DNA from: Methylobacterium sp.
Lineage (GTDB): Bacteria > Pseudomonadota > Alphaproteobacteria > Rhizobiales > Beijerinckiaceae
NCBI GenBank assembly: GCA_021154065.1
Contig: JAJKJG010000015.1
Coordinates: forward strand, 1 to 18,179
DNA length: 18,179 nt
Direction: 5' to 3'
Shown: positions 9,647-17,987 of the stretch, in pieces
How positions within the stretch are numbered: the stretch's first letter is position 1
Layout of the letters: every line of letters starts with the position of its first letter
The notes under the pieces: model-generated
Databases searched by the model: none
Told to the model about the DNA's origin: nothing
Seen by the model: the letters and a program-made list of their open reading frames with translations, nothing else
Program-made: the position numbers and the translations under genes

Positions 9647-11221
9647 TTATTCGGCCGCGGCCGAGAAGGCATCGAGGAGCGCGAGCCGCGGCGAGCCCGC
9701 CCGCGCCGGCCGCGCCGCGAGATCGCGGGCGAGGGTCATCGGCTCGGGCCGGAACAGGCGCGCGTCCATCGTCGTGAGCTTCGCCGCGATCGCCGGGCGG
9801 AAGCCCATCCGGCCGAGGACGTCGCGCTCGAGGTCGAGGCCCGGCGCGATCTCGACGAGCTCGACGCCGCGCTCGCTCAGCCGGAACACGGCGCGTCCGG
9901 TGACGTAGAGCACGCGCTGCCCGCGCTCCTGCGCGTAGCGGCCGCTGAAGGTGATCTGCTCGACCGCCTCGACGAGCTTCGGCCGCTCGCCGTCGCGGCC
10001 GGCCGCGAAGGTGCCGCTGAACACCACGGTCCTGGCGTTCTGGCTGATGTTGATGAAGCCGCCCGGGCCGATGATGCGCCCGCCGAAGCGGCTGACGTTG
10101 ACGTTGCCCTCGCGGTCGATCTCGGCGAAGGAGAGGAAGGCGAGGTCGAGCCCGCCGCCGTCGTAGAAATCGAACTGGTAGGGCTGGTCGATCATCGCGG
10201 CGTAGTTGCGGGATGCGCCGGCCTCGTTGCCGGACGCCGGCGCGCCGCCGATCAGGCCCTGCTCGTTCGTCAGGCACACGGCGTCGAGCACGCCCTCCTC
10301 GGCCGCCACATTGGCGATGCCGGTCGAGATGCCGGAGCCGAGGTTGCAGATCGCGCCCGGGAAGAGCTCGAGCGCGGCGCGGCGGGCGATCACCTTGCGG
10401 GCGTCGAGCGGCAGCGCCGGGATGTCCGACAGCGGCACGCGGAGCTCGCCGGCATAGGACGGGCTGTATTCGGTCTCGTAGGTCTGGCGCTGACCGGGCT
10501 CGACCACGACGAGATCGACGAGGATGCCGGGGATCTTGACCGCTTTCGCCGGCAGCGTGCGCCGCTCGGCCATGCGCTTCACCTGCACGACGACGAGGCC
10601 GCCGCAACGCTTCGCGGCCTGCGCCATCGACAGCATCTCGCCGAAGATCGGCTCCTGCTCCATGGTGACGTTGCCGTCCTCGTCCGCGGTCGTGCCGCGC
10701 AGGAAGCAGGCATCGATCGGGAACGGCTTGTAGAACAGAAGCTCCTCGCCCCGGAACGTCACGAGCTCGACGAGGTCTTCGCTCGCGCGCCGGCTCTGGC
10801 GGCCGCCGCCGTGGCGCGGGTCGACGAAGGTGTGGAGGCCGGTCCGCGTCAGGAGCCCGGGCCGTCCCGCCGCGATCTCGCGCGTCAGCTGCGACAGCGC
10901 TCCTTGCGGCAGCGTGTAGCCCTCGATCATGTCGGCGACGGCAAGGTCCGAGATCTTCGGCGAGTTGACGAAGGTGCCGCAGACGATGCGCTTCAGAAGG
11001 CCTTCGTGAGCGAAATGGCCGGCGCCGAGGTTGCCGCCGTCGCCGAGCCCGACCGGGTGGATCGAGGTAATGTGGCGCGGCTCGCCGGTCGCGAGGAAGC
11101 GGCGCTCGACCGCGGCCATCAGCGCCTCCGGCACGGCGTGGCCGCCGCCCGAGCCGCCGATCAGGATCGTGTCGCCGTCGCGGACGAGACCGGCAGCCTG
11201 GTCAGCCGTGACGCGCCGCAT
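9647..11221 (-). CDS. Family I CoA-transferase (propionate/short-chain acyl-CoA:acetate type, fused alpha-beta)
   Basis: This 524-residue protein starts at ATG 11221 behind GGAGGAGGAG; its start overlaps the end of the ATPase fusion gene by 20 bases. The two halves are fused in one chain, as in propionate CoA-transferase. The N-terminal half has [22 protein letters not shown] and [13 protein letters not shown]. The C-terminal half has [19 protein letters not shown] and [15 protein letters not shown], where Glu320 is at the position of the catalytic glutamate that forms the CoA thioester intermediate. It would move CoA from an acyl-CoA donor to an acid from the pathway. Gene order (transporter, CoA-transferase, aldolase) implies that the imported compound yields a carboxylate that is activated by CoA transfer. 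The substrate is not readable from sequence. Confidence 0.93.
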
Positions 11222-13412
11222 GCGCTCCTCCTCCGTCAGGCTGGAACTCGCCGGCGAAATGGCAGGCGGCGAAATGCCCGCCTTGGTGCTCGGCGAGCGG
11301 CGGCGGCACCTCGGCGCACACGGCTCGGGCGATCGGGCAGCGGGTGCGGAAGCGGCAGCCGGACGGCGGGTCGACCGCGCTCGGCGGCTCTCCTTTGAGC
11401 TGGAGGTGCTGCCGCCGGCGCTCGACGACGACGTCCGGCACCGGCACCGCCGAGATCAGGTAGCGCGTGTAGGGGTGGAGCGGGCGCTCGAACAGCACGC
11501 CCGAGCGCGCGACCTCCACCACCTTGCCGAGGTAGAGCACCACGATCCGGTCCGAGATGTGGCGCACAACCGCGAGGTCGTGGGCGATGAACAGGTAGGT
11601 CAGCCCGAACTTCTCCTGCAGCTCGAGCATCAGGTTGATGATCTGCGCCTGGATGTTGACGTCGAGCGCCGAGATCGGCTCGTCGGCGATGATGAAGTCG
11701 GGGCGGACCGCGAGCGCCCGGGCGATCGAGATGCGCTGGCGCTGGCCGCCGGAGAACTCGTGCGGGTAGCGCTGCGCCGCCTTGGGGCTGAGGCCGACGG
11801 TCGAGAGCAGCTCTGCGACCTGCTCGCGGGTCTCGGCCGCGGTCGCGGCAAGGCCGTGGAAGCGCAGCGGCTCGCCGATGATGTCGGCGACCGTCATGCG
11901 CGGGTTCAGCGAGGCGTAGGGGTCCTGGAACACCATCTGCATGCGCTTGCGCAGCGGCCTGATCTCGGCGGCACTCGCGCGCGCGATGTCCTCGCCCTCG
12001 AACACGATCGAGCCCGCGTCCGGCTTGTGGATGCGGATCAGCACGCGGGCAAGCGTCGATTTTCCGCAGCCCGACTCGCCGACGAGGCCGACGGTCTCGC
12101 CGCGGGCGACGTCGAGGTCGACGCCGTCGACCGCGTGCACGATCAAGCGCTTCTGGAAGAAGCCGTTCTTCGGCAGCGGAAAGTGCTTCACGAGGCCGCG
12201 CACCTCGAGGAGGCGTTCGCCTTTCCCCGCCTGCCGGGAGAGGCCGGCCCGCGCCTCCGGCGCGACCGGGTGAGGGGCTGCCTCAGGATCGAGCGCGAGC
12301 GTCGACAGCCCCTCACCCTCGGCCTGCGGGCTCGCCTCGCCGGCCTCGCCGCCGAGGCCCTCTCCCCGCAGGCGGGAAGAGGAGGGGGGCAGTGCGAGCC
12401 GCCCTCCGGCTTGCGTCACCCAGCAGCGGGCGTCGCGGCCGGGCGCGACCGCGAGAAGCTCCGGGTGCTCGGTGCAGCGCTCGATGCGGAACGGGCAGCG
12501 CGGCGCGAAGCGGCAGCCTTGCGGCAGGTCGAGCGGATCGGGCGGCGCGCCCTCGATCGTCGTCAGGCGGCGGTTGCCGGGCGTGTGGCGGTCGATGCGC
12601 GGCACGGCGTTGATCAACGCCCAGGTGTAGGGGTGGCGCGGATCGGAGAGCACCTCCTCGGTCGATCCTTCCTCGACCACCTCGCCGGCGTACATGACGA
12701 CGACGCGCGCGCAGACGCCGGCGATGACGCCGAGGTCGTGGCTGATGAGCACGATCGCGGTGCCGAAATCCCGGTTGAGCTCGCGCAGGAGCTCGAGGAT
12801 CTGGGCCTGGATGGTCACGTCGAGCGCCGTCGTCGGCTCGTCGGCGATGAGCAGCACCGGGTCGTTCGACATGCCCATGGCGAGGACGACGCGCTGGCGC
12901 ATGCCGCCCGAGAACTGGTGCGGGTAGCTGTGGATGGCGCGCTCCGGCGCGTTGATACCCATCCGGCCGAGCATCTTCACGGCCCGATCGGTCGCCTGAT
13001 CGCCGGTGTAGTTGCCGTGCACCACCATGGTCTCAACGAGCTGGCGGGCGATGCGCAGCACCGGGTTGAGTGAGGTCATCGGGTCCTGGAAGACCATCGC
13101 CATGCGGCCGCCGCGCAGGTTCCGCATCTCCTCCGGGTCGGCGCCGAGGACGTCCCGGCCCTGGAAGCGGATGTCGCCGCCGACGATCCGGCTCGGCTCC
13201 TCGAGAAGCCGCATCAGCGAGAGCGCGGTGACGCTCTTGCCCGAGCCCGATTCGCCGACGATGCCGAGCGCTTCGCCGGCCGCGACCGAGAAGCTGACGC
13301 CGTCGACGGCGCGCACCACGCCCTCGTCGGTGAAGAACTGGGTCTTGAGGTTACGGACCTCGAGGACGGGCGTCGCGAGGCCCGTCGCGCCCGGCTTCAC
13401 GGCGACGTTCAC
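11202..13412 (-). CDS. Dpp/Opp-type ABC transporter, two ATP-binding proteins fused in one chain (DppD-DppF-like)
   Basis: GTG 13412 overlaps the upstream permease stop (GTGA), giving 736 residues, twice the normal length for one ATPase. The first half has Walker A GESGSGKS (Lys59), signature FSGGMRQR, Walker [13 protein letters not shown], and a C-terminal Cys-rich oligopeptide-ATPase tail ([15 protein letters not shown]). The second half has Walker [10 protein letters not shown] (Lys451), signature FSGGQRQR, Walker [13 protein letters not shown], and a matching tail ([15 protein letters not shown]). Both sites look intact, so one polypeptide can supply both nucleotide-binding domains. The join, about residues 344-398, is low-complexity Gly/Glu/Ala/Pro and is encoded by a palindromic repeat rather than by a conserved domain. 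Fused DppDF-type proteins are known in this family. It energises the two permeases encoded just upstream. Confidence 0.95.
12219..12383. repeat. Palindromic repeat in frame inside the ATPase fusion gene
   Basis: Inner arms GGGTGAGGGGCTG (12268-12280) and CAGCCCCTCACCC (12306-12318) are perfect 13-base complements around a 25-base loop. Outer arms 12219-12245 (CTTTCCCCGCCTGCCGGGAG core) and 12356-12383 (CTCTCCCCGCAGGCGGGAAG core) also pair with few mismatches. The 165-bp unit resembles the CCCTCACCC/CTCTCCCCGC palindromes common in intergenic DNA of Hyphomicrobiales. Here it is translated on the minus strand without a stop and supplies the linker between the two ATPases. Confidence 0.8.
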
Positions 13413-17796: not shown

Positions 17797-17943
17797 AGGG
17801 GTGGGGGGTGGCTGGGCCAGGCGAGAGGGCGACGAGGATGATCCGGCTGGGCCAGGGCAGCCATCGACACCCCCGCCTGATCGTCGACGAAGCGCCTCGG
17901 AACGGTGGGCGGGCTCCGCCGGAAACAGCGTAACCCTCGCCCG

Positions 17944-17987
17944 GTCGGCGCTGGTGCGCCGACTCGACCTCTCCCTCCGGGAGAGGT
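17944..17987. repeat. Two adjacent perfect hairpins
   Basis: GTCGGCGC-TGGT-GCGCCGAC (17944-17963) is followed three bases later by ACCTCTCCC-TCC-GGGAGAGGT (17967-17987). Both stems are perfect. The second shares its CTCTCCC/GGGAGAGG logic with the outer arms of the repeat inside the ATPase fusion gene. A further GCGCGCG-TC-GCGCGC stretch follows at about 17990-18004. Confidence 0.65.

Follow-up and report, generated by a model that had tools for sequence, protein, structure and literature searches.

An in-frame palindromic repeat of a dispersed family in the linker of a DppD-DppF ATPase fusion

The stretch of DNA analysed here (the window; 18,179 nt, contig JAJKJG010000015.1, Methylobacterium sp.) encodes on its minus strand a fused DppD-DppF-like ATPase gene of 736 aa (11202..13412), recognised by its open frame, by domain models and by its fused homologs. 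The frame starts with a GTG at 13412 that overlaps the stop codon of the upstream permease gene (GTGA). Its DppD-like unit comprises residues 1-335 (12408..13412, minus strand; NF007010 match, residues 17-333) and its DppF-like unit residues 399-736 (11205..12218, minus strand; NF008453 match, residues 397-722). Each unit pairs an ABC ATPase with a C-terminal region of the oligopeptide type: ABC_tran and oligo_HPY are each matched in two stretches of this single open frame, and among the profile models the OppD/DppD-like one ends at residue 333 while the DppF-like ones start at residues 396-397. These limits, together with the two ABC_tran stretches, bear out the initial annotation in placing a palindrome between two complete ATPase units. 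Its remark that Dpp/Opp ATPases are usually separate genes was too strong, since solved two-ATPase fusions exist, and chains 8j5q_D (612 aa) and 8wd9_D (548 aa) match the window fusion in two stretches each. GsiA, YejF, Rv1281c and mycobacterial DppD likewise have two ABC ATPase units per chain, but the window protein differs from them in its longer linker with the repeat, and its NCBIfam scores fall under the cut-offs of GsiA (616.5 of 1077 bits) and YejF (539.6 of 834). The 736-residue product is probably made as one chain. We weighed a separate DppF start within the linker and rejected it, as by eye the closest GTG is 16 nt away from the purine run.

The palindromic element occupies 12220..12382 on the minus strand and is delimited by its inverted repeats, by alignment with other copies of its family and by a family model that matches the window from 12384 to 12220 (E 8.3e-31). 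The interval 12219-12383 corresponds to residues 344-398 of the 736 aa and its minus-strand frame is open throughout, so the nested inverted repeat of ~165 bp and ~55 residues had been correctly sized and correctly described as translated in frame as the linker. The inner arms (12268..12280 and 12306..12318) are indeed 13 nt long and 100% complementary. The outer arms, given earlier as ~27 bases, measure 24 nt and are 88% complementary; in the coding sense the left one lies at 12359..12382 (CCTCTTCCCGCCTGCGGGGAGAGG on the minus strand) and the right one at 12220..12243. Both inverted repeats and alignment reveal a feature that had been overlooked, namely that each outer arm forms a hairpin of its own, with CCTCTCCCCGC..GCGGGGAGAGG at both ends of the element in the family alignment. 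The predicted RNA fold of the element has -121.5 kcal/mol (z = -4.60) and the DNA fold a z of -5.36, and in neither case did any of 200 dinucleotide shuffles reach the same stability; no Rfam RNA family reached its gathering score within the window. The openness of the repeat frame alone constitutes weak evidence, since across the repeat copies 68 of the 114 frames (six for each of 19 copies) are open, against 44% in mononucleotide shuffles.

With the window element as query at E <= 0.001, we found at least 32 matches in G077 and at least 17 in its genus-mate G039, counts in which both strands of one place can figure and for which up to 40 candidates were scored per genome. G077 is the closest genome found, the window gene being matched there at 90-93%, and near-identical proteins (P0007, P0086 and P0121) carry the NCBI names of Microvirga sp. 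MAGs. The copies were counted in the genomes of relatives rather than in the window's own genome; with this scope, the lack of related copies elsewhere, which the initial annotation had named as evidence against its idea, was not what we observed. Matches in other genomes were all short (two in G109, three in G046, one in G082), and there were none in G001. Eighteen full-length copies (12 from G077 and 6 from G039) could be aligned, with 67-83% identity to the window over the match, which confirms that the repeat belongs to a dispersed palindromic family. In their common plan both ends form a hairpin CCTCTCCCCGC..GCGGGGAGAGG and the centre forms another, GGGTGAGGGG..CCCCTCACCC; partial copies of the right half are also found alone. 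GC-frame plots and Pfam give no sign of coding in 13 of the 18 copies, which are intergenic or touch merely the over-extended start of an open reading frame. As the members of this dispersed family are mostly noncoding, the window element is best seen as a repeat inserted in frame. Two Methylobacterium plasmids have 16 and 19 matches to the repeat; these are the only two Methylobacterium records among the plasmid matches, and their gene tables are empty across the matched stretch. A family-level survey yielded matches in at least 8 of 298 genomes at E <= 1e-12, with 2 candidates scored per genome, and an order-level survey in 4 of 397 at E <= 1e-140.

The window holds two further features of this sort. 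At 2246-2373, between the genes of a binding protein and a permease, there is a second, unrelated palindromic repeat with arms of 22 nt at 91% and inner arms of 16 nt at 94%, which has 32 matches in G077 and 0 in G039. The stretch 17913-17984, beyond the last of the listed genes, weakly matches the right half of the linker-repeat family (E 0.0029).

Four of the 18 full-length copies (L146, L162, L174 and L147) are open in frame with a gene. Those at L162:1501-1570 and L146:1594-1664 encode the C-terminal end of a cNMP-binding protein and of a DUF4112 protein, respectively, stop codon included. The other two, L174:1501-1660 in G077 and L147:1501-1660 in G039, represent one orthologous site in two species, where the repeat lies in a gene for a YejA-like binding protein; it follows an ATG overlapping the stop codon upstream and precedes the twin-arginine motif. 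From the start ATG to this motif the G039 gene has no ATG, GTG or TTG and one CTG only, while the G077 gene has two TTG, and translation through the repeat is therefore compelling in G039 and likely in G077. Among the 120 YejA-like homologs listed, 103 have a recognisable mature start; among these matches the N-region spans 35-39 residues in 85 and at least 75 residues in seven. Five of the seven long N-regions (P0245-P0248 and P0251) contain other peptides that by eye, from protein alone, look repeat-derived.

Several palindromic repeats are known with which this family can be compared. Rickettsia palindromic elements (RPEs), according to PMC2229807, are palindromes of 105-146 bp, mostly intergenic and also found in frame in protein genes, in 19 reading frames, and a Gmk carrying an RPE insert is described there as translated and active. 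The likeness that the initial annotation had drawn with them holds: the window repeat is likewise in frame and comes from a dispersed family with mostly noncoding copies (13 of 18), and the family has in-frame members in several conserved genes (dppDF, L147/L174, L162 and L146). The likeness is a descriptive one, and the window repeat differs in that its host is a free-living member of the Hyphomicrobiales, in its start (CCTCTCCCC) and in its GC content of 71-79%. The elements RU-1/ERIC, RU-2 and RU-3 are presented in PMC2759123 and PMC2229807 as MITE-like, 103-168 bp long and with open frames fused to other genes, including signal-peptide regions. Our repeat has the terminal inverted repeats of a MITE, but the target-site duplications reported for RU-1 and RU-2 are not seen: none of 19 copies has an exact flanking duplication of at least 2 nt (p 0.69 against re-paired flanks), in a test where copy ends were set by motif and one (L172) was placed wrongly. 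REPs of the GTAG/CGTC type are also small palindromes found in genes, but they measure 20-40 bp against ~160 bp and end in GTAG or CGTC, with RAYT transposases for GTAG, whereas our repeat ends in CCTCTCC..GGAGAGG. PF01797 (Y1_Tnp, the REP transposases) was found in neither G077 nor G039, while the control search detected it in 5 of 14 named genomes. Intragenic REPs offer a case, in PMC3733652, of different REPs at about the same recB site in two Xanthomonas species. Br-REP1 and Br-REP2 of Bradyrhizobium, from related Alphaproteobacteria, consist of multiple palindromes whose flanking palindromes also occur alone, according to PMC5082802, but their printed consensus (CCGGAATCTCGAGATTCCGG) is another sequence and they were reported from 3'-UTRs. 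In-frame palindromic repeats are thus already established for Rickettsia, enterobacteria and others (PMC2229807, PMC2759123, PMC5082802, PMC12306157, PMC3733652), and the window dppDF gene is a new place for an ordinary kind of event. Search listings of the open-access literature showed no paper on this gene or repeat.

Whether the fusion or the repeat came first can be approached from the relatives of the gene. We built a quick tree of 59 hand-picked rows (46 fused and 13 split; 33 of 119 window-plus-protein rows plus 26 loci rows) with SH-aLRT as sole support, in which 20 of 55 inner branches stayed open. The window groups with P0001-P0006 within a clade of 42 rows, all of them fused (SH-aLRT 100), while the 13 separate dppD/dppF pairs fall outside this clade and are 45-58% identical to the window; this is the outcome of the comparison of fused and separate loci proposed earlier. 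When the repeat model was scanned over 14 dpp loci (L001 and L116 being two views of the same one), its sole match was a weak one in G109 (E 0.0005); 8 of the 9 fused genomes had no repeat in the linker, and none of the 4 split loci had it either. An all-fused clade and eight fused relatives without the repeat indicate that the fusion predates the repeat and that the repeat did not create it. The initial annotation had left two possibilities, and in-frame insertion into a linker is the one that stands. In the other, the repeat once separated dppD from dppF, became coding when the intervening stop and start were lost and so made the fusion. The arrangement that this requires does exist: G039 has a copy between a separate dppD (stop TGA) and dppF (GAGAGGAGG and then ATG), and in G077 a related palindrome lies between separate paralog genes and provides the tail and stop of dppD. 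These split pairs are, however, distant paralogs of 51-55% identity, outside the fused clade and thus not of the window's lineage, and fusion without the repeat is the rule in 118 homologs, as it is in the eight relatives' genomes, which makes a repeat-made fusion very improbable. Some evidence points the other way: a search with the DppD half, in which tails were inspected for 44 of 120 listed matches, returned P0131, P0141 and P0168 (70-79% identity), which end in the linker as separate proteins on long contigs, and P0126 (86% identity over the DppD half), which stops in the linker and comes with no contig information. These four may be frameshifts, fragments or real splits, and none of them shows the repeat as a spacer.

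The linkers of 118 fused homologs (120 minus P0007, which is partial, and P0086, which is internally deleted) have a median of 39 aa and reach at least 50 in 13 of them, against 70 aa in the window. The window exceeds the median by ~31 aa rather than by 55, which means that some of the former linker was replaced or lost. The window and P0001 differ at 8 of the 56 residues of the insert and at 11 of the other 680, so that the insert diverges ~9 times faster. At the protein level, the full insert is present in the window, P0001 and P0007; P0002, P0003 and P0004 retain the right-half peptide alone, probably as a half-deleted remnant of the repeat, and P0006 has no clear trace of it. The insert of P0005, also known from protein only, is a version near another G077 copy (L164) and may for this reason represent a separate insertion. 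Long linkers (at least 48 aa) changed state 8 times over 37 hand-picked rows; as length alone reveals no repeat and the long ones were chosen deliberately, these changes were not counted as repeats. The AlphaFold model says little on the linker, because its pLDDT of ~25 there is equalled by residues 283-333 and 654-736 and its mean is 61.5. Two other candidates were rejected. The palindrome in the fused linker of G046 matches only itself in 6 genomes and has a fold z of -1.39, and the linkers of P0080 and P0119 (PRESGDP..DSRLRGNE), which resemble another repeat, gave a single weak match across 8 genomes, itself interrupted by a stop, and none in the fetched loci.

The strong predicted fold of the RNA (-121.5 kcal/mol, z -4.60) and the repeated acquisition of palindromes at the dppD|dppF joint could be taken to mean that the insert has been put to use, as an mRNA hairpin that slows the ribosome between domains or as a longer linker that tunes the motor. 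We consider this unlikely, since the insert changes ~9 times faster than the rest of the protein, close kin (P0002-P0004) hold only a remnant of it, and its fold energy reflects its palindromic nature. The repeat also bears on the assemblies themselves. In P0121, from a Microvirga MAG, a DppD half 100% identical to that of the window is joined inside the repeat to an unrelated protein, probably by a misjoin at two repeat copies. In G077, contig C60 (L212, whole; also L142) has the gene without 519 bases (query 658-1176), an in-frame gap that starts in the middle of DppD and reaches the repeat's end, its protein being P0086 (560 aa); the gap is either a deletion or an assembly error. The repeat does then break assemblies, and the window arrangement could be suspected of being itself an artefact of contigs misjoined by it. 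The same fused arrangement nevertheless recurs in the separate records P0001 (736 aa, 41 member sequences), P0005 (738 aa) and P0007, and fused homologs are the rule around the window gene, which leaves such an artefact with a very small chance.

The reading that we prefer, at a probability of roughly 0.86, is that a non-autonomous palindrome dispersed in a Microvirga-like genus entered the pre-existing DppD-DppF linker in frame, was tolerated, and has since been drifting and eroding. The element would be ~160 bp long, with a hairpin at each end and one in the centre, and its two ends would also pair with one another. The insert would be tolerated on account of the linker's variability and probable disorder; as the DNA has a high G and C content and few stops, an insertion of the right length would preserve the frame of the already fused gene. 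We regard the repeat family, the in-frame position, the older fusion and the fast divergence of the insert as established; the insert itself is probably neutral.

The part worth following is the recurrence at the dppD|dppF junction. The G039 copy (L152; L117:2433-2610), one of the 18 full-length ones, sits between the separate dppD and dppF with its purine-rich end just before the likely dppF start and ribosome-binding site. In the split paralog of G077, the junction is occupied by a palindrome of another subfamily (model E 0.002, weak alone) which the dppD frame enters and in which it stops. The fused gene of G109 has a divergent member of the repeat in its linker; used as query, this linker finds dozens of matches in G046 with its first 60 bases and 65, among the matches listed, with the whole query. 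Fold z values are -4.68 for the G109 linker and -4.90 for that of the window, and range from -2.39 to +0.38 in eight other fused linkers. As these loci lie on different branches, the junction repeats of G039, G077, G109 and the window appear to be separate insertions, on a tree too weak for dating. Joints between co-translated units, that is, the dppD|dppF gap or linker and the start-to-Tat stretch of the YejA-like protein, may then be recurring landing sites, with the repeat apparently read on one strand and in one frame (SPRLRGEG); we offer this tentatively, at slightly less than even odds. The shared strand and frame hold for the window, L146, L162 and L147/L174, four loci in which they were noticed post hoc. 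If this were so, repeats would treat a fusion linker like intergenic space and keep turning into protein.

Rickettsia is the best-known source of coding palindromic repeats, and the finding adds a free-living high-GC lineage. It further provides a datable case in which the fusion is older than the insert and full, half and absent states occur among close sequences. Since the repeat yields chimeric proteins such as P0121, it is also a warning to annotators and assemblers. If the recurrence is true, fused operon genes would serve as a natural assay for the positions at which a protein tolerates added sequence, and linkers would regularly gain length, and signal peptides their N-regions, through repeat insertion.
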